Shown: positions 35 to 8,893 of the stretch, in pieces
How positions within the stretch are numbered: position 1 is the first letter of the stretch
How the letters are laid out: each line of letters opens with the position of its first letter
Source: Candidatus Competibacteraceae bacterium
GTDB taxonomy: Bacteria; Pseudomonadota; Gammaproteobacteria; Competibacterales; Competibacteraceae
Direction of reading: 5' to 3'
DNA length: 8,893 nucleotides
NCBI GenBank assembly: GCA_012032855.1
Contig: JAAUQA010000104.1
Location: 1 to 8,893, forward strand
Position numbers and translations under genes: made by a program
The notes under the pieces: model-generated
The model's database searches: none
What the model was told of the DNA's origin: nothing
The model's input: the letters and a program-made list of their open reading frames with translations, nothing else

Positions 35-547
35 GTGGCCCCGCCCCGACGGCACCACCGGCCGTCGAAGCGCGAGATCCTCTTCCACGCCGACGGCAAC
101 GTCGATCGCGAGACCACCTGGCAGGAGGACGGTGCGATCGACCGGAACAAGGCCACCCGCTCGCGCTTCTACGACCCTTCGGCCGGCCGGCGGCAGGTCA
201 TCGCCGTTTTTGGGATCGGGCTTATTGCGTGGGCGGCTGCCAGTTTCGCCCATGAACTGTTGGTGTTCGCCTGGGTCGATGGCGATAGCGTAGTGGTCGA
301 GGGCAAGTTCAGCAATGGGCGCACACCGAAACAAGGCACAGTGAGCGTCTACGACGGCAGCGACACACTGCTGCTGACCCTGCCAATCAAGGACGACGGC
401 ATGGCCCGCTTTCCGCTGGAAGACTATAGCAGTGGCCTCAAAGTCGAACTCGACACGGGTTCGGGTCATACGGCCTACTGGATTTTGACCCCGCAGGACA
501 TTGCCGACCAGCGCAGTAAACATCCACAGACCGAGGCGCGGAAATGA
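35..547 (+). CDS. Small exported protein before ZnuA-like gene; N-terminus doubtful
   Basis: The frame is open to the left edge of the window; GTG at 35 is only the first possible start seen. From about residue 54 the protein looks normal: two arginines, a hydrophobic stretch (about residues 55-72) ending in Ser-Phe-Ala, then HELLVFAW and a beta-rich domain of about 95 residues, as in small periplasmic proteins with a carboxypeptidase-regulatory-like or DUF4198-like fold encoded beside metal-uptake genes. I read the hydrophobic part as a signal peptide or membrane anchor. Residues 1-53 are unlike the rest: charged, no signal features, and almost every codon ends in G or C, a bias that stops near base 205. 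There is no ATG or GTG start just before the signal segment, so the true start may have been replaced by a foreign join. The stop overlaps the next start by 4 bases, implying translational coupling. A role in metal acquisition is inferred from the neighbour only. Confidence 0.6.
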   Translation: MAPPRRHHRPSKREILFHADGNVDRETTWQEDGAIDRNKATRSRFYDPSAGRRQVIAVFGIGLIAWAAASFAHELLVFAWVDGDSVVVEGKFSNGRTPKQGTVSVYDGSDTLLLTLPIKDDGMARFPLEDYSSGLKVELDTGSGHTAYWILTPQDIADQRSKHPQTEARK

Positions 548-768
548 AAAGCTTGGCCACTTATCTCGGCTTGCTGTTGGCTTGGCTAAGCGTCGCGGCG
601 GTCGCCGAACCGCTCAGCGTGTACACGGTTAATTACCCGCTGGCCTATTTTGCCGAGCGCATCGCCGGCGAGCAGGCCGAGGTGGTATTCCCGGCTCCGG
701 CTGGGCGTGACCCAGCTTTTGGCAACCAACAATCGCTACCATTGGCGAGTATCAGCAGGCCGATTTAA
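544..768 (+). CDS. ZnuA-like metal ABC transporter binding protein, 5' part (frame broken)
   Basis: This is the N-terminal part of a cluster A-I (zinc/manganese) solute-binding protein: a signal peptide of about 21 residues ending Val-Ala-Ala-Val-Ala, then the opening beta strand SVYTVNYPLAYFAERIAGE and the FPAPAGRDPAF segment where ZnuA relatives carry the first lobe's metal site. After Phe the frame runs into unrelated sequence and stops at 766-768. Family-like sequence (WQPTIATIGEYQQADLILL) resumes at once in the next frame from base 720. One extra T in the TTTT run at 717-720 restores a continuous protein of about 295 residues ending at 1430, a normal length for the family. The start overlaps the stop of the preceding gene. 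In typical ZnuA proteins a His follows the Asp-Pro at this place; here it is Ala-Phe-Trp, so one usual metal ligand is absent. Confidence 0.8.
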   Translation: MKSLATYLGLLLAWLSVAAVAEPLSVYTVNYPLAYFAERIAGEQAEVVFPAPAGRDPAFGNQQSLPLASISRPI

Positions 769-1430
769 TTCTCCTCAACGGCGCCGACTACGCGCGCTGG
801 GTGACCAAAGTCAGTTTGCCAAGGGCACGCCTGGTGGATACTTCGAAGGCTTTTGCCGAACGGTTGATTGCCATTGAGGATGCTGTCACCCACAGCCATG
901 GTCCCGAGGGCGAGCATTCTCATACCGGCACGGCGTCGACGACTTGGCTGGATTTCCAGCAGGCGTCTTTGCAGGCTCAGGCCATCGCCGCCGCGTTAAG
1001 CCGCCAACAGCCGACGTTGCAGGATACGTTTATGCAAAACCTGCAGGCATTGAAGCAAGACCTGGCGGCGCTTGATGAGCAACTCGCGGAACTGGTGGTG
1101 AAGCAACCTGAACTGCCTCTGCTGGCTTCGCACCCCGTGTACCAGTATCTTGCCCGGCGTTACGGGCTCAAGCTACGCAGCCTGCAATGGGAGCCGCAAC
1201 AGCTCCCGGATGAAGCGCAGTGGCAGGAGCTTGCCGCAATCCTGCAACAGCACCCTGCCCGCTGGATGATTTGGGAGGCCGAGCCGGCGCCGGAGGCGGT
1301 TGCCAAGCTCAGTGAACTAGGTGTGCAAAGCGTGGTGTTCGATCCCTGCGCCAATGTTCCTGCAAACGGCGACTGGCTTAGCGTGATGCGCGCTAACGTG
1401 AATAACCTAAGGCCTGTGTTTGTCTGGTAA
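720..1430 (+). CDS. ZnuA-like metal ABC transporter binding protein, 3' part (frame broken)
   Basis: This is the continuation of the gene starting at 544, in a frame shifted by one base. A GTG at 801 could serve as a start but sits in mid-domain without a signal peptide, so an independent protein from there would not be exported. Visible features are the ADLILLNGADYARW segment of the N-terminal lobe; a short histidine-rich loop (HSHGPEGEHSH, about bases 894-924) typical of zinc-binding members; a long linking helix around LQALKQDLAALDEQL; LLASHPVYQYLARRYGL with the second-lobe metal His; and a C-terminal end with N-N-L-R-P. Role: periplasmic capture of Zn(II) or a similar metal for an ABC importer whose permease and ATPase are not in this window. 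I see no clear terminator in the 159 bases after the stop. Confidence 0.82.
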   Translation, partial: WQPTIATIGEYQQADLILLNGADYARWVTKVSLPRARLVDTSKAFAERLIAIEDAVTHSHGPEGEHSHTGTASTTWLDFQQASLQAQAIAAALSRQQPTLQDTFMQNLQALKQDLAALDEQLAELVVKQPELPLLASHPVYQYLARRYGLKLRSLQWEPQQLPDEAQWQELAAILQQHPARWMIWEAEPAPEAVAKLSELGVQSVVFDPCANVPANGDWLSVMRANVNNLRPVFVW

Positions 1431-1589: not shown

Positions 1590-1900
1590 TCAACGGAGTC
1601 GCCGCAACGCATAAGTCCCGGCACCGAAAAACAACAGTGTCGGCAGCAACGCGCCCAGTAGCGGATAGTCGTACAACAGCACCACATTGCCCAGCAGCCG
1701 GTTGAGCAGGAAGAACAATAACCCCAGGAGCACTGCAACCAACAGCCGTTGCCCGATCCCGGCAGTGCGTTGCGGTCCGAACACAAACGGTAAGGCGATG
1801 AATAGCATCCCCAAGTTCGTCAAGGGCGTGAACGCTTTTACCCAGAAGGCCAGTTCATAATTTCGGGCGTCCAACCCATTTGCTTGCAGATAACCGAAGT
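1590..1900 (-). pseudogene. lptG: lptG remnant, C-terminal about 100 residues only
   Basis: Reading leftwards from about 1900, the protein matches the C-terminal end of LptG, an inner-membrane permease subunit of the LptBFG lipopolysaccharide exporter: GYLQANGLDARNYELAFW, then membrane helices containing ALPFVFGPQR, a G-Q-R-L motif and LLGALLPTLLFF, ending in LRRLR. Full LptG is about 350 residues; here the first about 250 are missing. The open frame continues upstream to 2027, but that part (including HLVRKKKDLTP) is not LptG-like and looks like fused junk. The homology ends next to a REP-like motif at 1904-1918, and the toxin gene begins soon after, so the 5' part was lost by insertion or rearrangement. 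Without the periplasmic jellyroll and the first helices it cannot work as LptG, so a functional lptG is expected elsewhere in the genome. Confidence 0.75.
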
Positions 1901-1903
1901 GAA

Positions 1904-1926
1904 AAGGGGTCAGGTCTTTCTTTTTT
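1904..1926. repeat. REP-like GGGGTCAGGTCTTTC motif at the lptG break
   Basis: The + strand carries AAAAGGGGTCAGGTCTTTC followed by a run of T. GGGGTCAGGTCTT sequences are familiar as parts of dispersed elements linked to REP-associated (IS200-like, Y1) transposases in gammaproteobacteria. Here the motif sits exactly where homology to LptG stops. No second copy and no transposase are visible in the window, so assignment to that element class rests on my recollection of the motif. Confidence 0.35.
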
Positions 1927-2035
1927 CGCACAAGATGAAATGAATTATTCGTTCCTCTAGCCCACCAAGATAAGGCTGCCTGAACAAAGTGGTTTGAAGG
2001 CAAACCGAACACCACCAGAGTCGACAAGAAAGGGA

Positions 2036-2302
2036 CTACTCGTAAATATCTTTGCGGTGGCCAACACGCAACACCAACACAACCAGTTTATCGTCTTCAA
2101 TGTTGCAGATTATTCGATAGTTACGCACTCGGTAGCGCCACAGTCCCAACAGATCGCGGGACAATGGCTTACCGAAACGACGAGGATCTTCAGCAGTGGC
2201 AATGCGCTCCCGTAAGTAGCGCAGAATTTCCTGTTGGACCTGCCGGTCGAGTTTGTGAAGTTCCTTGGCGGCCGCATCGTCAAACTCAACGGTCCAGGTC
2301 AA
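2036..2302 (-). CDS. RelE/ParE-superfamily toxin
   Basis: This 88-residue protein has the compact RelE fold pattern: an N-terminal beta strand (TWTVEFDDAAAKELHKLD), two helices, LSRDLLGLWRYRVRNYRIIC forming the central strands, and a C-terminal VLRVGHRKDIYE. The conserved basic cluster (R56, R58, R60, R63), the H82-R83 pair and Y87 match the positions used by RelE-type ribosome-dependent mRNA interferases, so RelE is a better guess than the gyrase-targeting ParE. The start is a TTG at 2302, preceded by a CAGGG that can serve as a weak ribosome binding site. It overlaps the end of the antitoxin gene by 17 bases, the usual coupling for such pairs. The key basic residues are present, so the toxin looks intact. 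Confidence 0.88.
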   Translation of the reverse strand: MTWTVEFDDAAAKELHKLDRQVQQEILRYLRERIATAEDPRRFGKPLSRDLLGLWRYRVRNYRIICNIEDDKLVVLVLRVGHRKDIYE

Positions 2303-2498
2303 GACCCTGTTCCAGTTCGTCCAATGTCCAGCGCTTGCCCGGGTTCTCCAAGCGTTCGATGGCTAGGTACTTATCTTCCATCTCGTCGAGGTGCTCTAGA
2401 ATCGCCTCGCGGACATAGAAAGATTTGGTACGCCCGGTCTTGGCGGCCAATTCAGTCAAACGGGCTTCAATTTCTTTAGGCAAACGGATTGCTAACAT
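2286..2498 (-). CDS. Ribbon-helix-helix antitoxin (RelB/CopG type)
   Basis: This is a 70-residue antitoxin. Residues 1-45 form a ribbon-helix-helix DNA-binding domain: the strand MLAIRLPKEIEARL, then TELAAKTGRTKSFYVREAILEHL. The acidic C-terminal part (EMEDKYLAIERLENPGKRWT and following) is the likely toxin-wrapping segment. I chose the ATG at 2498 rather than an upstream start at 2579 because GGGAG lies 6 bases before it and the protein begins directly at the DNA-binding strand, as in this family; the extra 27 residues upstream have no recognisable character. The gene overlaps the toxin gene. The inverted repeat just upstream (2511-2537) is a natural site for autoregulation by the toxin-antitoxin complex. 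Confidence 0.87.
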   Translation of the reverse strand: MLAIRLPKEIEARLTELAAKTGRTKSFYVREAILEHLDEMEDKYLAIERLENPGKRWTLDELEQGLDLDR

Positions 2499-2510
2499 GG
2501 TTACTCCCGA

Positions 2511-2537
2511 TGCTATACGTGTAAAACATATATAGCA
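2511..2537 (-). promoter_or_regulatory. Inverted-repeat operator candidate for the toxin-antitoxin operon
   Basis: TGCTATA (2511-2517) and TATAGCA (2531-2537) form a perfect 7-base inverted repeat with a 13-base AT-rich spacer, ending 13 bases upstream of the antitoxin ATG. The region is AT-rich on the coding strand and contains promoter-like hexamers (TTGCTA, TATAGC), though I cannot fix one -35/-10 pair with proper spacing. Ribbon-helix-helix antitoxins commonly bind short repeats overlapping their own promoter, which fits. Confidence 0.5.
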
Positions 2538-2664
2538 TAGCAACCTGATATCCCGATGAGAATCGGGGTGTGAAGGCAAAATTGCTAAATGGTGTGAATG
2601 CTTCAGCCAGTTGACCAGGGTGGTGGTACTAATCGCTCATGAATCACCCCAGAGTTAAGGTGAG

Positions 2665-3279
2665 TCAGGGCGCAAACCGGATTTTATAACCCAGGCTATC
2701 CAATTGGTTGGGAATCGCATTGAACGCAATCGTGATGCGTTGATCCCCCTCATTGGGCGGCACGCCGTGTAGTAGATAACTAGGATAAAGCACCATGTCA
2801 CCGGGCTCCACATCTGGCAGCATCCAGGTATCGCTACTGTAATGATTGAGCGGCACATCGTTCTTGAAAATAAATTCCCCACCGCCGGTGTTCTTGCGGA
2901 AAAGTGTGCTGGCCGAGGGATGCGGCTTGGTGATGTAAATGATGCCGGAAATAAAACTATTCGCGTGGGTGTGCATGAATTGACTGCCACCATGATCCAG
3001 CACATTCATCCACATTTCTTTTACCAACCACTGCAGTTTTTCCGCGAACAACAGCTCACCGAAGTTGACTAGGTATGGCGCAACCAGCCCAGTCAAACTT
3101 AAGTAAACCTCATCTTCCTGCGGGTTGATCATTTGTGTGTGTGACAGCAGATCGGTAGCGGTATTGGCTTTCCTGCGCAACGATTCGGCCCGTGCAGTGA
3201 GTTGCCGGATTAAATCAGAACTCAGCAATGCATCGGTTTTCATTAACGGCGTGGGAAACAGACCGATTATTTTGCTCAT
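2665..3279 (-). CDS. 2OG-Fe(II) oxygenase of the TIGR02466/2OG-FeII_Oxy_5 type
   Basis: This 204-residue protein begins with the family signature LFPTPLMK and continues with MNVLDHGGSQFMHTHANSF, the SGIIYI strand, a glycine-rich GGGEF, then PGDMVLYPSYLLHGVPPN and RITIAFN. Probable iron ligands are within H103-x-H105 and H171, with R181 as the 2-oxoglutarate carboxylate anchor. In the textbook motif H-x-D/E the acid would stand where H105 is, so the exact facial triad is uncertain. Family members are about 200 residues, so it is full length. It lies 34 bases after the tmpB-like gene on the same strand and is probably the last gene of that operon, although no good ribosome binding site is visible. 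The substrate is unknown; context suggests a phosphonate or a methylated amine, but that is inference. Confidence 0.82.
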   Translation of the reverse strand: MSKIIGLFPTPLMKTDALLSSDLIRQLTARAESLRRKANTATDLLSHTQMINPQEDEVYLSLTGLVAPYLVNFGELLFAEKLQWLVKEMWMNVLDHGGSQFMHTHANSFISGIIYITKPHPSASTLFRKNTGGGEFIFKNDVPLNHYSSDTWMLPDVEPGDMVLYPSYLLHGVPPNEGDQRITIAFNAIPNQLDSLGYKIRFAP

Positions 3280-3313
3280 TGGGAGTTTACCGACTTTATG
3301 AGCATTACAGACC

Positions 3314-3883
3314 TTACTCCTTTTCTCTCTTCTCTCTTCTCGCCTTTTCTAGATAAGGCCGATAATGTTCAATGGATGGGGTTTCCAAACCGAAGACTTT
3401 TCCGGCGTCGTCGTACCGGCGCAACCGAACCGCGCGTTCAAAATGAGGGTAGCGCTCGAACGATTCGACTTCAGTGGACTTTAACACGCCACCTTGCAGC
3501 TTCAGACTCTGAATCGAAGCATCTGACAGCGTAGCAAGATAATCGGGATCGACCGCGCACAGATAGCGTTTGGCCTTGACATGCAGGCGTATCGGTTCCA
3601 CGACTTCCGACATGAAATGAGCTTCCAGTGCAGCGGCCCCAACCTCCTCGTGCTTGCCATCAATCCCGTGATCGGCAATGTTTTCGGCCAAACCATGGAC
3701 AAAATGCCCGTAATCATGCAGGACGGCTGCGGCGATCATCAGATCATCTTCACCCGCTTCGGCGGCAAAGCACGCCGTTTGTAACATGTGCTCCTGCATG
3801 GTGACCTGTTCGCCGTAGTCCTTGTGACCAAAGCGATGAAATGCGGCGATGATCTCGTCAATGATGGTATGGTTTTCGCTCAT
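3314..3883 (-). CDS. tmpB: TmpB/PhnZ-type HD-domain C-P-bond-cleaving oxygenase
   Basis: This 189-residue HD-domain protein belongs to the group of mixed-valence di-iron oxygenases (MIOX/PhnZ/TmpB), also known as the phosphonate-operon HDIG protein. Metal-site residues can be followed in order: H32 in MQEHMLQ, the H56-D57 pair in VLHDYGHF with H60, H78 in DGKHEE, H101 with K105 in LHVKAKRYL, and D158 or D159 in LRRYDDAGK. Y23 with E25 just before fits the PhnZ substrate and gating region. The reaction expected from the family is O2-dependent cleavage of a 1-hydroxy-2-aminoethylphosphonate (free or N-trimethylated) to phosphate and glycine or glycine betaine, in the cytoplasm. It starts 3 bases after the stop of the dioxygenase gene that makes its substrate, so the two are co-translated. 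A highly charged tail, ending KARREKREKE, is encoded by a polypyrimidine repeat. TmpB versus PhnZ cannot be decided by eye. Confidence 0.87.
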   Translation of the reverse strand: MSENHTIIDEIIAAFHRFGHKDYGEQVTMQEHMLQTACFAAEAGEDDLMIAAAVLHDYGHFVHGLAENIADHGIDGKHEEVGAAALEAHFMSEVVEPIRLHVKAKRYLCAVDPDYLATLSDASIQSLKLQGGVLKSTEVESFERYPHFERAVRLRRYDDAGKVFGLETPSIEHYRPYLEKARREKREKE

Positions 3884-3886
3884 AAG

Positions 3887-5008
3887 TTAAGCCCGTTGTT
3901 CGCTTAGGATCGCCAATTTGCTCAGCAGACCATCCTTATCGGCATAGCACCCTTGCAAATGGCGTTCGCCGCCATTGCCGCCATAACCACTGCGACCGTG
4001 CAGAATGCGTTGGTTATCGAAAAGCAACACGTCGCCCGCATCCAGTTTTAGGGTGATTTTATGCGCCCCATCTTCAAGCAAACGGCCGAACGCCTGATAA
4101 GCACTGTAGAAATCCTTCATCTTGTCAGGTTCGACGTAAAAGGGCTGAATCGATCGACTATTGAAGTGGATCGCCTTCAGCCGACTCCGGGCGTCAGTCT
4201 CAATGATGGTGGTTTTGTGTTGCAGGTCGGTATCTTTACTGAGATAGCGAAATTTGACCGGGGTTTTCGCTAACAGATCGAACTTTTCCGGTGCGTCCCG
4301 CCGCAGCACTTCGGCCACGAAAAATCCATCAACCAGAGTATTGTCGCCGCCATCAATGCTGTTGCTCAAACAATGCAGTACCTGCAGGGTCGGAACCGGA
4401 TGGCGGTAGGGATTATCCGTATGACTGGGTAACGCCAAGCCGGTATAAGCCAGATTAGTGGGATTGGGTGTTACTTTGACATCAAACAACCGACCGTAAT
4501 TAGTCTCTCGAACATAGCCGAACAGCTTGACAACTTCGAGCACCATGCCCGGTTCAGTCGGCACATCCCGCAGCATTGTGAATCCGTAATCACGCACGTC
4601 TTGCAGCATCTCGCGCAGGGCCGCATCTTCATCGCAAAGGTGATCGTAACCATAATGCCGAATTATTGGGATGATCTCGGCGGCTTGCCACAGCGTCGGG
4701 CGCATATTCCGGCGCTCGACTTCGTCCGGTTCATAGGCATTGTTCCGCAACCAAGCTGGATCGAAGCGACTGGTGATGCCATCATCCGCCCAGGTAATGT
4801 CCAAGGTTCCGTTTAGCACGACATGAGCAGGAATGCTATCCAATGAGATCACGACCGTATCAACCAGCCGCTGTCCGTTAGGGTGCCGATTTTCCGGCGC
4901 GTTGTCCCGCAACCAGACGTAATGAAAGCTGCTGCAGTGGCCGTCCTCCCACTGAATAACGAGAGCTTCGGCTGTCCGGTCGATTCGGGCAATGACATGT
5001 AGGGTCAT
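3887..5008 (-). CDS. tmpA: TmpA/PhnY*-type 2-oxoglutarate dioxygenase acting on an aminoethylphosphonate
   Basis: This 373-residue protein is related to gamma-butyrobetaine hydroxylase. An N-terminal DUF971-like domain (about residues 10-95, with VWLRDNAPENRHP) precedes a TauD-like catalytic domain (about 120-365). The iron site is H196-x-D198 (LPSHTDNPY) and H337 (RILHGRSGY); R349 near HLQGCYADKDG is a candidate 2-oxoglutarate anchor. Gamma-butyrobetaine hydroxylase binds structural zinc through cysteines just after the WLRDN motif; those cysteines are absent here. Beside a TmpB-like gene, the expected reaction is hydroxylation of C1 of N-trimethyl-2-aminoethylphosphonate (TmpA) or of 2-aminoethylphosphonate itself (the TmpA-like enzyme called PhnY*). 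Classical PhnY belongs to a different branch without DUF971. The ATG at 5008 gives a normal length, though the ribosome binding site is poor. It follows the App1-like gene by 60 bases. Confidence 0.87.
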   Translation of the reverse strand: MTLHVIARIDRTAEALVIQWEDGHCSSFHYVWLRDNAPENRHPNGQRLVDTVVISLDSIPAHVVLNGTLDITWADDGITSRFDPAWLRNNAYEPDEVERRNMRPTLWQAAEIIPIIRHYGYDHLCDEDAALREMLQDVRDYGFTMLRDVPTEPGMVLEVVKLFGYVRETNYGRLFDVKVTPNPTNLAYTGLALPSHTDNPYRHPVPTLQVLHCLSNSIDGGDNTLVDGFFVAEVLRRDAPEKFDLLAKTPVKFRYLSKDTDLQHKTTIIETDARSRLKAIHFNSRSIQPFYVEPDKMKDFYSAYQAFGRLLEDGAHKITLKLDAGDVLLFDNQRILHGRSGYGGNGGERHLQGCYADKDGLLSKLAILSEQRA

Positions 5009-5068
5009 GAATACTGGAACGCGGCAGTTAAATGCAGGGGCTTCTACGAACAGTATAATGTCGTGATG

Positions 5069-6034
5069 TTACGGAATGGTGTCTATTAAAAGGTCGCTGA
5101 GCGCCTGCTCTAAAGGGTCAGCGGGTTTGGTGTCTTTGGTAAATTCTGCCCGGATATCCGTCAAACTGGCCGAGTCGATATAGCCCTGAGTCGCTGCGTG
5201 GTCCGCAGCCGCCAACGTGTCGGTAACTAATAACATATCGATACAGTGCTGACGTGTTTGCTCCGCAAGCTTTCCAACTTCTTCATCCCGCTGCTTGTTG
5301 CTGACATCGCGGATGTAAATGGCGCGGACTTGACGGGCACGGTTAGCAACAATTTCGGAATAAATCTCAGGGTCATGCTGACCACTGTCGCCAATCAGAA
5401 TAAACGGCAACTCGGGGTAAGTATCCATGACATGGGTAATCTGTGCGAGTTTATGTGCTCGATGACTGGCATGAATCAGCCGGTCAAAATCCAGGCCGAA
5501 ATCCTGCAGCAGCAAGGGACCGGGCGGAATTCTATTTATTGCCATGAATTCGTTTAGAAAGTCATACAGGTTCCAGGGGCTGCTGGATACGTAAAACAAG
5601 GGCCGTGGAACCGGACCGTCGCTTTGCAGAGCGCGATAAAATGCCGCCACGCCGGGAAACGGCAACCGCATCGCGGGGCTGTGTAAAAAGGTCAACCGTG
5701 CCATCCGCAATAGACTGGTCGCATTGGTCACCAGAATCGTATCGTCAATGTCGCTGATGACGCCGAAATCGCAAACGTTGGGAGGCACCAACACTGTGCC
5801 GGTCGCCGTCGGTGTGATCGTAGTCGCCAGCGATGGTTGAGCGGGAACGTGCAGCCCGACCTCGTGCCAAAGCGCATCCTCATCCGGATTGTCGGGAGTG
5901 GGCAGAATAAAGTTGAAATACCCCTCCTCATCGGTGCGCGTTTCCACCTGCACATTACCGATGGTGGCAATCAATTGCAGATTGGGGACTTCATCACTCT
6001 CAAAGCGCTGGTAAGTGGCGGCTAGATTTTCCAT
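5069..6034 (-). CDS. App1-type (DUF2183) HAD phosphatase, catalytic part
   Basis: This is the catalytic part of an App1-like phosphatase, a HAD-superfamily group whose yeast founder dephosphorylates phosphatidic acid. Visible motifs are the nucleophile D95-I-D-D-T99 (GVISDIDDTIL), the SSSPWNLYDFL segment with the motif II Ser (150-154), K195 in SHRAHKLAQI, and the acidic motif GDSGQHDPEIY (215-225). Before this lies a beta-rich accessory domain with YFNFILP. The ATG at 6034 overlaps the end of the upstream open frame (6022-6249) by 13 bases. TYQRFESDEVP directly after this ATG normally lies inside the family's N-terminal domain, not at a start, so this is most likely one gene with a lost base. 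Restoring one G in TGG at about 6031-6034 gives LWENLAATYQRF and a continuous 393-residue protein. No signal peptide is seen. Its place first in a phosphonate operon is unusual. Confidence 0.85.
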   Translation of the reverse strand: MENLAATYQRFESDEVPNLQLIATIGNVQVETRTDEEGYFNFILPTPDNPDEDALWHEVGLHVPAQPSLATTITPTATGTVLVPPNVCDFGVISDIDDTILVTNATSLLRMARLTFLHSPAMRLPFPGVAAFYRALQSDGPVPRPLFYVSSSPWNLYDFLNEFMAINRIPPGPLLLQDFGLDFDRLIHASHRAHKLAQITHVMDTYPELPFILIGDSGQHDPEIYSEIVANRARQVRAIYIRDVSNKQRDEEVGKLAEQTRQHCIDMLLVTDTLAAADHAATQGYIDSASLTDIRAEFTKDTKPADPLEQALSDLLIDTIP

Positions 6035-6249
6035 AACGATTCGTCGTTAGACCGCTCAATGTCTTCACCGCGATGTTCCAGTACACGGCCTTTTAGATAC
6101 AGGTTTTGCGCATTGCCGTAACCGGCATAGGGCACGACCTGCAAGGGGTGATCATATTTTAAGCGCTGTTTAAGCTGGTAACGCAGTTCATCGAAGCGGC
6201 TTTCCAGTAAATGGCCGATGCGTTGAAAGGTACTGGTCCAGTTAGCCAT
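6022..6249 (-). CDS. App1-type phosphatase, N-terminal part (frame broken)
   Basis: This 75-residue open frame is the amino-terminal piece of the App1-like protein: after a basic helix (RFDELRYQLKQRLKY) comes VVPYAGYGNAQNLYLKGRVLEHRG, the typical start of the bacterial DUF2183 accessory domain. It ends DESLWKI and stop, where relatives continue with a tryptophan followed by a short helix and RRFESDEVP. That sequence lies at once in the next frame, from 6034. One extra G after TTATGG joins the two. If the break is real, the ATGG in the overlap could still allow re-initiation and produce the two halves as separate chains. It is the first gene of the leftward operon and diverges from the DUF3500 gene. 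The ribosome binding site is weak. Confidence 0.75.
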   Translation of the reverse strand: MANWTSTFQRIGHLLESRFDELRYQLKQRLKYDHPLQVVPYAGYGNAQNLYLKGRVLEHRGEDIERSNDESLWKI

Positions 6250-6299
6250 CGTTAGCGATTACTTATCTTGGTGTACAGAGAGAGTTAACAACGAACGAG

Positions 6300-6305
6300 A
6301 GTATA
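6300..6305 (-). promoter_or_regulatory. Possible -10 element for the leftward phosphonate operon
   Basis: Read on the - strand this is TATACT, a five-of-six match to the sigma-70 -10 hexamer, about 50 bases upstream of the App1-like start at 6249. I see no convincing -35 at 17 bases, so an activator-dependent promoter is possible. Confidence 0.3.
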
Positions 6306-6313
6306 GCGTAGCA

Positions 6314-6342
6314 GTGAAGACGTTTTTGTGAGGTTTCTTCAC
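6314..6342. promoter_or_regulatory. Inverted repeat in the divergent promoter region
   Basis: GTGAAGA (6314-6320) and TCTTCAC (6336-6342) are perfect 7-base inverted repeats separated by 15 bases, centred between the App1-like and DUF3500 genes. The element overlaps the spacer of a plausible + strand promoter and lies just upstream of the - strand TATACT. Its position and symmetry fit an operator for a dimeric regulator of both arms. No regulator gene is in the window, so the partner is unknown. Confidence 0.4.
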
Positions 6343-6355
6343 ACGAAACTATGCT
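6326..6355 (+). promoter_or_regulatory. Candidate promoter for the DUF3500 gene
   Basis: TTGTGA (6326-6331) and TATGCT (6350-6355) are four-of-six matches to the sigma-70 -35 and -10 hexamers with an 18-base spacer, about 35-40 bases before the likely start codon. The right half of the inverted repeat lies in the spacer, so a bound regulator would probably block RNA polymerase. Confidence 0.35.
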
Positions 6356-6388
6356 TTACTTTTTACACAGTGCAACAATTTGGAGCCA

Positions 6389-6913
6389 ATGAGTATGGGT
6401 ATCAATCGCCGTCAATGGCTAAGCACAGTTCCTTTAGCATTGCTGACCAGCGGACTGTCGGTGCCGGTAATTGCGCAGCAACGTGACGCATGGACTCTTC
6501 AAGCTCTGGAATTTTTGGAAAGCCTGGATAGCGGCCAACGTGCGCAGGCATTATTTCCGTTTAATTCCGGGCAACGACGGGACTGGCACTACATACCCCG
6601 GCAGCGGCACGGTGTGGCGATCAAGGCATTGTCCGATGAACAACGTGGTCTGTTGTGGCGGTTAATGGCAACGGCCTTGAGCAAGCGCGGTTTCGCTAAG
6701 GTTCGCGATGTCATCAAAACCGAAGCGATTCTGGCCGATCTCACTAATAACCCAGGTTTTCGCGACCCTGACAACTACGCCATAGTTTTTTTTGGCGATC
6801 CAGCCACTCAACAAACCTGGGCATGGCGCTTTGAGGGCCACCATTTGGCGCTGAATTTTACTGTGATTCCCGGTAAAGGGTTAACCTTGACACCGGCGTT
6901 TTTTCGGCGCTAA
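6389..6913 (+). CDS. DUF3500 family exported protein, N-terminal part (frame broken)
   Basis: GGAG at 6382-6385 serves ATG codons at 6389 (3 bases away) or 6395 (9 bases, better spacing). The protein starts MGINRRQWLSTVPLALL with a twin-arginine motif, a hydrophobic stretch and an Ala-Gln cleavage region near VIAQQ, so Tat export to the periplasm is likely. The mature part has DUF3500 features: LDSGQRAQALFPF, DWHYIPRQRHGVAIKALS, DPDNYAIVFFGDP, and WAWRFEGHHLALNFTV. The family has no experimentally fixed function that I know of; the conserved His and Trp residues suggest ligand or metal binding, but that is a guess. After LTPAFF the frame reads Arg-Arg and stops. With one T fewer in the six-T run at 6899-6904 it continues FFGANPAVTPPG into the next open frame, giving about 344 residues, normal for the family. 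Confidence 0.8.
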   Translation: MSMGINRRQWLSTVPLALLTSGLSVPVIAQQRDAWTLQALEFLESLDSGQRAQALFPFNSGQRRDWHYIPRQRHGVAIKALSDEQRGLLWRLMATALSKRGFAKVRDVIKTEAILADLTNNPGFRDPDNYAIVFFGDPATQQTWAWRFEGHHLALNFTVIPGKGLTLTPAFFRR

Positions 6914-7430
6914 TCCTGCTGTCACGCCCCCCGGTCATCAACATGCGGGCTTTCAGGCGTTGGCAGACGAGGAAAACCAAGCGTTCCGACTGTTGAACAG
7001 CTTGTCCGAACCCTTGCTCGAACAGACCGTGATCAATGACCGTTCGTTGGGAAATATTGTGACCGGACCGGGTCGCGAGGACAGTTTGCGCGAACGTCAG
7101 GGTTTGCCTCTGGGGCGAATGGCGGCTGAACAACGCGATCATGCGCTCGCCTTGCTGGATAGCTATTTACAAACGGCTCCCGCCGCAGTGGCCACGCGCA
7201 ATTTACAAAGAATTCGCGACGCCGGTGTTGACCAACTGTATTTTGCCTGGGCGGGGAGCCTCACTCCCGGCAAACCCTACTATTACCGCTTGCATGGGCC
7301 AACGCTGATCATCGAATACGACAACACCCAGGACGGCGGCAATCACGTTCACTCGGTATGGAACGATCTCCAGGAAAATTTTGGCCAAGATTTGCTGGCC
7401 GCGCATTATGCCTTATCCGTTCACGGCTGA
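6906..7430 (+). CDS. DUF3500 family protein, C-terminal part (frame broken)
   Basis: This is the continuation of the DUF3500 gene. The family-like reading GANPAVTPPGHQHAGFQ starts at 6906, upstream of any start codon in this frame, which shows it is a fragment and not a gene of its own. The C-terminal domain shows DQLYFAWAGSLTPGKPYYYR, LHGPTLIIEYDNTQDGGNHV, the HVHSVWND motif and a final FGQDLLAAHY, all characteristic of DUF3500 ends. The His-x-His in NHVHSVW and the pair of His in the N-terminal part (EGHHLAL) could together bind a metal, but nothing here proves it. It is followed 145 bases later by the phosphonate-binding protein gene with its own Pho-box promoter, so the two may be separately controlled. 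Confidence 0.8.
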   Translation, partial: GANPAVTPPGHQHAGFQALADEENQAFRLLNSLSEPLLEQTVINDRSLGNIVTGPGREDSLRERQGLPLGRMAAEQRDHALALLDSYLQTAPAAVATRNLQRIRDAGVDQLYFAWAGSLTPGKPYYYRLHGPTLIIEYDNTQDGGNHVHSVWNDLQENFGQDLLAAHYALSVHG

Positions 7431-7495
7431 CAGTCAATCCCAATTCTTCGGTAATCGGCTTTCGGCGGAGTAAGCAGGCGGGGCTCTCCCTATCC

Positions 7496-7529
7496 CTGTC
7501 ATAAAATTGTTATATCAGCCCGCTAGCAT
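7496..7529 (+). promoter_or_regulatory. Pho box and -10 element upstream of the phosphonate-binding protein gene
   Basis: CTGTCAT (7496-7502), AAAA (7503-7506) and TTGTTAT (7507-7513) reproduce the PhoB site layout of two 7-base direct repeats separated by 4 AT bases; the first repeat is a perfect CTGTCAT and the second matches at five of seven positions. In PhoB-activated promoters the box replaces the -35 element and the -10 lies about 10 bases further on; here TAGCAT (7524-7529) follows after exactly 10 bases. The gene starts at 7576. This supports PhoB-dependent expression under phosphate limitation. Confidence 0.7.
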
Positions 7530-7575
7530 CCGGGGTTCCGTATAACTGCATTTTGCTTATCCAAAGAACGATTTC

Positions 7576-8598
7576 ATGAAAAAACTACGCTTGCTGTGCC
7601 TGACTCTCTTGTTATCGCTATTTACCCTCCACGCCTTAGCGGAAACCGAACTTACCGTCTATACCGCCTTTGAAGCGGATCAACTCAAGGATTACGCCGA
7701 GCGCTTTAACGCCAAGCACCCGGATATCCAAATCCAATGGGTACGGGACTCTACCGGCATCATTACCGCCAAGCTACTGGCGGAAAAAGACAATCCGCAA
7801 GCCGATGTGATTTGGGGACTGGCCGCCACCTCACTGCTGCTGATGAAGAGCGAGGGGATGCTGGAATCCTATGCCCCCAAAGGACTGGAAAAACTTGACG
7901 CAAAATTCCGCGGTGATTCCAATCCACCGTCCTGGGTTGGCTTGGATGCTTGGGTAGCTTCAATCTGCTTCAATACAGTCGAAGCCGAACGCTTGAACCT
8001 ACCCCAGCCGACGTCTTGGAAAGACCTGACCAAACCGGTCTACAAAGGTCACGTGGCGATGCCTAATCCCAATTCGTCCGGCACCGGCTTTCTCGATGTA
8101 TCAAGCTGGCTGCAGATGTTCGGTGAGGAACAAGGCTGGGCTTTCATGGATCAGCTTCATGAAAACATCGCTTTCTACACCCATTCCGGCTCCAAGCCTT
8201 GCAAAGACGCCGCCCGCGGAGAAATCCCCATCGGCATTTCCTTTGCCTACCGGGGCGCTCAATCCAAGGCTCAAGGCGCGCCTTTGGAAATCATCATTCC
8301 TTCCGAAGGTATCGGCTGGGATATGGAAGCCGCCGCCATCGTCAAGGGCACATTGAACATGGACGCCGCCAAAACCCTGATGGATTGGGCGATCTCTGAG
8401 GATGCCATGACGATGTATAACCAGAACTTCGCGGTGGTGGCGATTACCGAGATGTCCAAGCCAGTAGAGCATTTCCCCGAAGGTATCGCCGAAGCGATGA
8501 TCAAGAACGACTTTGAGTGGGCCGCTCAGAATCGTAAGCGCATTCTTGACGAATGGCAAAAGCGTTACGACGCCAAATCCGAACCCAAATCATCCTAG
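7576..8598 (+). CDS. phnS: Periplasmic 2-aminoethylphosphonate-type binding protein of an ABC importer
   Basis: This 340-residue protein begins with a clean signal peptide (KKLRLLCLTLLLSLFTLHALA, cut before ETELTVYTAF). The mature protein is a type II periplasmic binding protein like the iron(III)/AfuA group, and matches the PhnS2-type 2-aminoethylphosphonate binding proteins: TAFEADQLKDYAERF, VRDSTGIITAKLLAEKDNPQ, DVIWGLAATS, then LDAWVASICFNT, MPNPNSSGTGFLDVSSW, THSGSKPCKDAARGE, GISFAYRGAQ and PSEGIGWDMEAAA. The serine- and threonine-rich loops (DSTG, NSSGTG, THSGS) are placed to hold a phosphonate group. It would deliver 2-aminoethylphosphonate or its trimethyl form to the importer and so feed the TmpA/TmpB pair. 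It has its own Pho-box promoter and is followed by a hairpin before the next transporter gene. The exact ligand is inferred from family and neighbours. Confidence 0.87.
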   Translation: MKKLRLLCLTLLLSLFTLHALAETELTVYTAFEADQLKDYAERFNAKHPDIQIQWVRDSTGIITAKLLAEKDNPQADVIWGLAATSLLLMKSEGMLESYAPKGLEKLDAKFRGDSNPPSWVGLDAWVASICFNTVEAERLNLPQPTSWKDLTKPVYKGHVAMPNPNSSGTGFLDVSSWLQMFGEEQGWAFMDQLHENIAFYTHSGSKPCKDAARGEIPIGISFAYRGAQSKAQGAPLEIIIPSEGIGWDMEAAAIVKGTLNMDAAKTLMDWAISEDAMTMYNQNFAVVAITEMSKPVEHFPEGIAEAMIKNDFEWAAQNRKRILDEWQKRYDAKSEPKSS

Positions 8599-8623
8599 AC
8601 CGTTGGTATCGGCCTGGAAGTGG

Positions 8624-8695
8624 TTATCAAGACCGTCGGCGCAAAGGATACCGCAGTCGAGCCTACAAGGATGTATTCACGGCGTGTCTTGATAA
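8624..8695. repeat. 10-base inverted repeat after phnS-like gene
   Basis: TTATCAAGAC (8624-8633) and GTCTTGATAA (8686-8695) are perfect reverse complements separated by 52 bases. The inner part near the right arm contains GGATGTATTCACGGCGT, reminiscent of extragenic palindromic repeats in gammaproteobacteria, but I cannot confirm the family. The pair could fold in RNA between the binding-protein gene and its neighbour, or mark the ends of a small non-coding element. Confidence 0.45.
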
Positions 8696-8726
8696 GCATG
8701 TCTAGGTTGATACTCGTTTGGCTGCC

Positions 8727-8760
8727 AGCCGCGCTGACCTGATCGGGTTACGCGGCTTTT
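8727..8760 (+). terminator. Intercistronic hairpin with T run (attenuator-like)
   Basis: AGCCGCG (8727-8733) pairs with CGCGGCT (8751-8757), with a further inner ACC/GGT pairing, and is followed by four T (8757-8760, the first T shared with the stem). This fits a weak intrinsic terminator or an mRNA-stabilising hairpin. It stands 30 bases before the next gene, where it would give more binding protein than membrane or ATPase subunits, a common arrangement in ABC importers. Confidence 0.5.
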
Positions 8761-8789
8761 CCAATGTTGGCTGTTCGGGAGAATAGTTG

Positions 8790-8893
8790 ATGAATGCCGC
8801 TGTTAAACCCCAAGCACAACCCAATTTTGCTGAATCTCTAGCATCTGCTGCAGACCAGCAGCAGATTTATCTTGAAGTCGACCGGATTATCAA
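8790..8893 (+). CDS. Start of probable ABC transporter ATPase (partial, runs off the window)
   Basis: Only 34 residues are present. ATG at 8790 follows GGGAG (8777-8781) at 8 bases. The first about 26 residues are a polar lead; the last ones, IYLEVDRII, resemble the first beta strand of an ABC ATPase domain (a strand of the type L-E-V, followed in relatives by K-x-F-G). Together with the gene order binding protein, then transporter genes, this suggests a PhnT-like ATPase of the aminoethylphosphonate importer. The Walker A and signature motifs would lie outside the window, so a permease cannot be ruled out. Confidence 0.5.
   Translation, partial: MNAAVKPQAQPNFAESLASAADQQQIYLEVDRII

Follow-up and report, generated by a model that had tools for sequence, protein, structure and literature searches.

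The window analysed here, the complete 8,893-base contig JAAUQA010000104.1 of a Candidatus Competibacteraceae bacterium (GenBank assembly GCA_012032855.1), carries an adjacent tmpA-tmpB gene pair on its minus strand and, divergent from it, the gene for a PhnS2-type substrate-binding protein of the 2-aminoethylphosphonate (2-AEP) class that plausibly supplies the pair. We judge it probable (about 0.7) that the pair, a short-loop variant of the TmpA/TmpB system, releases phosphate and a betaine by oxidising the trimethyl form of 2-AEP (trimethyl-AEP) or a near analogue. In the proposed scheme TmpA, with O2 and 2-oxoglutarate (2OG), would hydroxylate 2-(trimethylammonio)ethylphosphonate, or a similar N-methylated 2-AEP, at the carbon adjoining phosphorus, and TmpB would cut the C-P bond at a mixed-valent di-iron site, leaving phosphate together with glycine betaine (or its analogue). 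The reaction schemes of TmpA/TmpB and PhnY*/PhnZ are those given in PMC10574752 and PMC8177086. Three further genes, for an App1-type phosphatase, a DUF3500 protein and a TIGR02466-type oxygenase, would be independent neighbours of this working unit. A route freeing phosphate from an N-methylated phosphonate is already known, and the window holds an uncommon sequence version of it beside an importer gene. The genes and gene pieces of this region are as follows (scores in bits where so marked).

2665-3279, minus strand: PF13759/TIGR02466 (2OG-FeII_Oxy_5) oxygenase, 204 amino acids (aa), intact; 63.7 bits vs a cut-off of 62.5
3314-3883, minus strand: TmpB-type HD-domain oxygenase, 189 aa, intact; HD domain, TmpB-like
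3887-5008, minus strand: TmpA-type Fe(II)/2OG dioxygenase, 373 aa, intact; TauD and GBBH matches, NF049936 407.2 vs a cut-off of 400
5069-6034, minus strand: App1-type HAD phosphatase, catalytic piece; APP1_cat, 171.4 bits
6022-6249, minus strand: N-terminal end of the App1-type gene, in a different frame; similar to the N-termini of two App1 relatives, L208 (E 3e-24) and L209 (E 8e-24)
6389-6913, plus strand: DUF3500 protein, N-terminal half; PF12006, 121.7 bits; solved relative 9x86, E 4e-16
6960-7430, plus strand: DUF3500 protein, C-terminal half in another frame; PF12006, 118.7 bits; 9x86, E 1.7e-13
7576-8598, plus strand: PhnS2-type (2-AEP class) ATP-binding cassette (ABC) transporter substrate-binding protein, 340 aa, intact; TIGR03261 526.9 vs a cut-off of 392.75
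8790-8893, plus strand: first part of a gene truncated where the contig stops, probably that for the transporter ATPase PhnT2; translated by hand

An earlier note, made from the sequence alone, had named six families in a co-oriented or divergent layout, and matches to family models confirm all six at or near the places it gave. The minus-strand genes are transcribed in the order App1, TmpA, TmpB, TIGR02466 oxygenase, RelB-like antitoxin and ParE/RelE-like toxin, with gaps of 60 nucleotides (nt) between App1 and tmpA, 3 nt between tmpA and tmpB, and 34 nt between tmpB and the TIGR02466 gene; the divergent App1 and DUF3500 starts lie 139 nt apart. The TmpA, TmpB, TIGR02466 oxygenase and PhnS2 genes are each open from start to stop.

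TmpA, TmpB and the importer

TmpA scores above the NF049936 equivalog cut-off and below that for gamma-butyrobetaine dioxygenase (362 vs 414.75), and its best solved relative is TmpA 6npb (E 2.7e-90). Its Fe ligands are H196, D198 and H337, an HDH set found also in all 80 loci of the first TmpA set described below. Equivalents of the aromatic cage (Y171, F175, Y188 and Y355) are kept, as mapped through an alignment with BBOX and its cage positions.

The predicted structure of TmpB (predicted local distance difference test score, pLDDT, 91.0) has TmpB 6npa as its best PDB match (E 4.7e-13, template-modelling score, TM, 0.85-0.86), followed by PhnZ. The probable iron ligands H32, H56, D57, H78, H101 and D158, assigned by alignment to TmpB 6npa and PhnZ and from motif order, are invariant in 43 aligned sequences and follow the H...HD...H...H...D di-iron motif of TmpB/PhnZ HD oxygenases. 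Family models, active-site residues and this TmpB-like predicted fold bear out the core of the earlier note, uptake combined with oxidative C-P cleavage.

Pairing was followed in two sets of TmpA loci. The first comprised 80 loci from several phyla, the best of 301 encoding a relative; the second was drawn from 48 genomes in the order of genome G368 (in the class of the genome titled Gammaproteobacteria), 30 of which had a TmpA-like match, and 20 of their 33 TmpA-like places made loci. Among the more distant TmpA-like matches, some may represent different enzymes of the butyrobetaine dioxygenase family. A TmpB match accompanied TmpA in 74 of the first 80 loci (46 downstream, 6 divergent and 22 in the same frame; the match in L036 is weak, E 2e-5), and two of the six loci without one stop at a contig edge. 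TmpB was likewise present in 19 of the 20 loci of the second set, two of them cut by a contig end, and the remaining contig stops 652 bases past TmpA. Overall, TmpB lies beside TmpA or is fused to it in 93 of 100 loci across phyla. The 22 same-frame loci, including L027, L042, L043 and L045, apparently encode a fused enzyme, a form seen also in the 565-aa database protein P0048.

In the class of G012, 11 of the 369 genomes have PhnS2, five of them at 65-72% identity. The partial gene after PhnS2 in the window gives 34 residues before the contig end, without a family match, and is probably PhnT2, since PhnT2 (501 vs a cut-off of 457.7) follows PhnS2 in L100; PhnU2 in L103 passes its cut-off. 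Two of the five closest PhnS2 loci contain AEP catabolism genes above curated cut-offs, namely PbfA (L101) and PhnW with PhnX (L104), while L102 holds a sulfoacetaldehyde acetyltransferase above its curated cut-off, and no catabolic gene passed its cut-off in L100 and L103 among the models tested. None of the five loci had a Tmp, App1, DUF3500 or TIGR02466 match. Phosphonate transporters are discussed more broadly in PMC8316502.

One of these five loci belongs to G082, a member of the order of G213. That order is probably home to the window, to judge from this PhnS2 locus, the most similar LptG proteins in the class sample (G213, G082 and G317; 62-67%) and App1 relatives of 60% identity in 2 of its 40 genomes. 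TmpA-like proteins were found there in 1 of 40 genomes (two places, 44% and 31%), with no TmpB match in the fetched stretch, and no further Competibacteraceae genome with the pair turned up among those that were searched. The rarity of TmpA in the order suggests that the tmpAB pair was acquired by transfer; among named genomes, Chloroflexota supply 8 of the 10 nearest TmpA loci.

The shortened TmpB loop and the substrate

A Y-x-x-E loop is described for PhnZ and TmpB in PMC8177086, its Tyr holding the second iron until substrate binds and its Glu reaching the substrate amine. The corresponding loop in the window is Y23-G24-E25, one residue short of that form, and its gating may be altered accordingly. 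Of the 74 TmpA loci that have a TmpB match, 18 share the short loop: five are from Chloroflexota, and the other 13 are labelled Acidimicrobiales, other Actinomycetota, Microthrix or, in one case, Gammaproteobacteria. Among the best 120 TmpB matches, 64 (the window included) have the short loop and 52 the long one, three fall outside the rule of the script and one was unread; P0289, one of those three, has the long form in the 43-sequence alignment. All 18 readable TmpBs of the 19 found in the order of G368 are long-loop proteins.

In a tree of 153 rows built without the loop, short-loop proteins fall mainly into two groups and need three changes, of which the starred branches force only one. 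Three changes are also needed in a 66-row tree, where the starred branches force at least two and none of 200 bootstrap trees has one; an approximately unbiased (AU) test on the same set does not reject a single short-loop clade (p 0.242). Separate origins of the short loop may be read from the change counts, and a single clade is compatible with the AU test. Among the papers listed on DUF3500, TIGR02466, Competibacter with phosphonate, and PhnZ with HD-domain terms, none was seen to describe a short-loop TmpB or this gene set; no search was aimed at the loop. PhnZ and TmpB gene models serve to count oxidative phosphonate degradation in environments, and surveys of this kind may mislabel or overlook a large short-loop branch, at least this member of which lies under the TmpB cut-off. 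Short-loop TmpBs also offer a natural test of the role of the Tyr/Glu loop in mixed-valent di-iron oxygenases.

Several findings weigh against oxidation of trimethyl-AEP by an importer-fed pair. TmpB lies below its curated cut-offs (NF049941, 194.4 vs 300; the Phn-HD model TIGR03276, 201.9 vs 214.6), and the earlier label of a TmpA/TmpB-type pair is carried by the model score for TmpA and not for TmpB. The phosphonate contacts of TmpA, given as N187, N287 and R288 in PMC9296572, map to N185, S284 and R285 in the window (a constant 6-residue numbering offset, which we infer, fits all three), and the three-contact pattern is broken: N185 and R285 are kept and N287 is replaced by S284. Judged by its residues, the site appears suited to an amine that is quaternary or methylated, and one of its phosphonate contacts is altered. 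The importer family is named for 2-AEP and not for trimethyl-AEP. No close PhnS2 occurs in the other TmpA loci (best E 9e-8 in the 80, none in the 20 more), which leaves the importer link without replication, like the links of the other neighbours. Finally, flanks were incomplete in part of the loci, reaching at least 4 kb on both sides in 52 of 80 loci and at least 9 kb in 37 of 80 in the first set, and at least 4 kb on both sides in 12 of 20 in the second.

Some of these findings would fit a pair that uses 2-AEP itself or an intermediate methylation state in place of trimethyl-AEP, which we regard as possible but unlikely. The 2-AEP class of the importer agrees with such a substrate, as does the report (PMC8177086) that the loop glutamate reaches the amine. 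Position 284 of TmpA varies with the loop, being S or A in 13 of 18 short-loop loci (S in the window) and N in 47 of 55 long-loop loci, with L036 in neither class; shared ancestry may explain this association, and N is kept in the five short-loop Chloroflexota loci. The retained aromatic cage equivalents and the TmpA equivalog score argue for a trimethylated substrate, and trimethyl-AEP or a close analogue is the reading we prefer.

Comparison with described systems places the window nearest to TmpA/TmpB of Leisingera caerulea, which converts trimethyl-AEP to glycine betaine and phosphate. The same two families are adjacent here, cage equivalents and iron ligands are kept and the predicted TmpB fold matches 6npa; unlike in Leisingera caerulea, the loop reads YGE, TmpB scores under its cut-offs, S284 stands for N287 and an importer gene adjoins. 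PhnY*/PhnZ, acting on 2-AEP, shares the two-step logic and the use of an HD oxygenase in step two, but the window HD oxygenase is closer to TmpB than to PhnZ, and PhnY* presumably belongs to another 2OG family (PhyH-like), whereas the window hydroxylase is of the BBOX/TmpA type. The binding protein resembles those of PhnS2/PhnT2/PhnU2 importers (possibly AepX-like) in passing the PhnS2 cut-off and differs from them in lying divergent from a TmpA/TmpB pair.

App1, DUF3500 and TIGR02466 in other genomes

The earlier note had counted the App1-type phosphatase, the DUF3500 protein and the TIGR02466 oxygenase as members of the locus, possibly acting on a lipid-bound phosphonate, and had named a lack of conserved neighbours near TmpA/TmpB in related genomes as the outcome that would overturn the idea. 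That lack is what the genomes examined display: none of the three families occurs in the fetched flanks of the 100 TmpA loci, and a 120-sequence TIGR02466 profile likewise found nothing in those loci. Applied to the loci fetched for App1 (11) and for DUF3500 (7), the same test recovered the respective family in every one. Approached from the sides of App1 (13 loci), DUF3500 (7), TIGR02466 (5 places) and PhnS2 (5), the neighbours were other genes, the sole hint of an exception being a 44,057-base contig discussed below.

In the order of G368, 22 of the 48 genomes have App1 relatives; 11 near-full-length loci were fetched there and matches of 35-42% identity were left out. With the two from the order of G213, the genes adjoining App1 are UvrA-like, transporter, hydrolase, pyrE-like and endonuclease/phosphatase-family genes, identified mostly by eye. 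Four of 14 TmpA genomes and, in the order of G368, four of 48 carry DUF3500; in the seven of these eight loci that were fetched (the G004 place, on a short contig, was left out), no other window protein had a match and no phosphonate gene was recognised by eye. In L115-L117 DUF3500 adjoins a small similar protein with a motif like 'HALPGSVLVL' by eye, that of L117 having no Pfam match at E 1e-5. The solved DUF3500 relative, PDB 9x86, is named 'Amc20' and could point to a function for the family; no paper on it appeared among the literature matches listed. As for the claim that the DUF3500 protein is exported, a twin-arginine-like N-terminus seen by eye agrees with it and is its whole basis.

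Under the lipid proposal, DUF3500 would act outside the cell, App1 would free the head group and TmpA/TmpB would follow. The layout of this one contig and the naming of the App1 family for phosphatidate phosphatase speak for it. Family matches apart, no conserved phosphonate link was found for App1, DUF3500 or TIGR02466; relatives of the first two adjoin other genes, and both genes are frame-broken in the window. With neighbours not conserved in the relatives examined, we reject the lipid-phosphonate locus as highly improbable, a negative result that spares work on a three-gene hypothesis which those relatives do not support.

TIGR02466 relatives occurred in 1 of 369 class genomes (29%; a set of 274 yielded that same genome alone), in the order of G368 in 5 of 48 (27-32%) and in 4 of 40 in the order of G213 (five places, 50-53%), the last with no TmpB in the fetched stretches, of which L201 stops at a contig edge. 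The adjoining gene is spermidine-synthase-like in L197 (Pfam), and L198 and L200 have a neighbour whose N-terminus looks the same by eye, L199 being ambiguous; such a neighbour may be a more usual setting of this oxygenase. Its solved relatives, 3bvc and 2rg4, are both named uncharacterized proteins.

The best named relatives of TmpB (74%) and of the TIGR02466 oxygenase (87%, in a metagenome-assembled genome) are from Candidatus Competibacteraceae and are listed with the same sources and the same longest contig, 44,057 bases, the only size above 20 kb common to the two lists (33 and 14 such sizes). The two genes are therefore probably on one contig in that relative, as judged by the matching size. 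Not counting the window, 11 contig sizes are common to the TmpA and TmpB lists, which is what linkage of the two genes would predict. Two other coincidences were set aside: a size of 2963 common to TmpA and TIGR02466, whose proteins look to be from different groups, and a short one of 1247 common to TmpB and TIGR02466, taken as chance.

These data bear on an improbable alternative in which the TIGR02466 oxygenase is a true partner of TmpB in Competibacteraceae, for example as a second alpha-hydroxylase that acts on 2-AEP or methyl-AEP and supplies the same C-P-cleaving enzyme. Its gene follows tmpB in the same orientation at a distance of 34 nt, the 74% and 87% relatives have the 44,057-base contig in common, and no TmpA with that contig is among the best 120 of 6822 TmpA matches, though a protein search would miss a frameshifted TmpA. 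Contig identity follows from size only, adjacency was not seen, and the shorter sizes show that sizes can coincide by chance; relatives in 4 of 40 home-order genomes sit elsewhere, with no TmpB in the fetched stretch, and the 100 TmpA loci have no TIGR02466 gene, the profile search included. The 44,057-base contig is a weak footing for two hydroxylases. More speculative still, and a long shot, is that short-loop TmpBs form a distinct branch of HD mixed-valent di-iron oxygenases in which a shortened Y-x-E loop restrains O2 and senses the substrate amine, and that the Competibacteraceae TmpB may serve both TmpA and the TIGR02466 oxygenase and so handle more than one phosphonate. A tmpA-tmpB pair beside independent neighbours is the arrangement we favour.

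Frame breaks and the outer contig

The App1 and DUF3500 families are present as the earlier note said, and each gene is split by a frameshift that it missed. The App1 frame is broken near 6030, at a short homopolymer, leaving the N-terminal 75 residues in the other frame, and the DUF3500 gene near 6905, also at a short homopolymer. App1 relatives aligning across nearly the whole window piece are single open frames of 386-466 aa (the 11 in the order of G368, plus a 394-aa and a 400-aa frame from the order of G213), and one DUF3500 relative is a single frame of 391 aa. Further genes lie towards the start of the contig.

544-1430, plus strand: ZnuA-like metal-binding protein gene, apparently frame-broken near 770
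1590-2027, minus strand: C-terminal part of LptG, by similarity matches
2036-2579, minus strand: RelB-like antitoxin and ParE/RelE-like toxin; NF048017 92.9 vs a cut-off of 50, PF05016 62.2 vs 23

The first piece of the ZnuA-like gene gives a weak match (15.3 bits). The breaks in this gene, App1 and DUF3500 look like sequencing or assembly errors, and decay is also possible. LptG is represented by its C-terminal ~100 residues, similarity ending near 1900 and the best matches beginning at query residue 9 or 10. LptG is normally essential, so the presence of a C-terminal part only may reflect a join made in the contig or a second copy that is broken.

Partial mis-assembly of the contig, with an artefactual layout of the outer genes, is doubtful. 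It would account for the abrupt loss of LptG similarity, for the frameshifts at or near short homopolymers, and for the G+C content of 62% in the first 1000 bases vs 50.5-55.2% in later steps. The genes from 2665 to 8893 are tightly and plausibly spaced, however, TmpB and the TIGR02466 oxygenase have their closest named relatives in the same bacterial family, and the 60% App1 matches are in the probable home order.

The first ~190 bases differ by eye from the gene after them, and an assembly join is possible there. A short protein upstream of the ZnuA-like gene has a very weak Ig-like match (E 0.096). The RelB-type and ParE/RelE-type genes, directly after the TIGR02466 gene, are both open.

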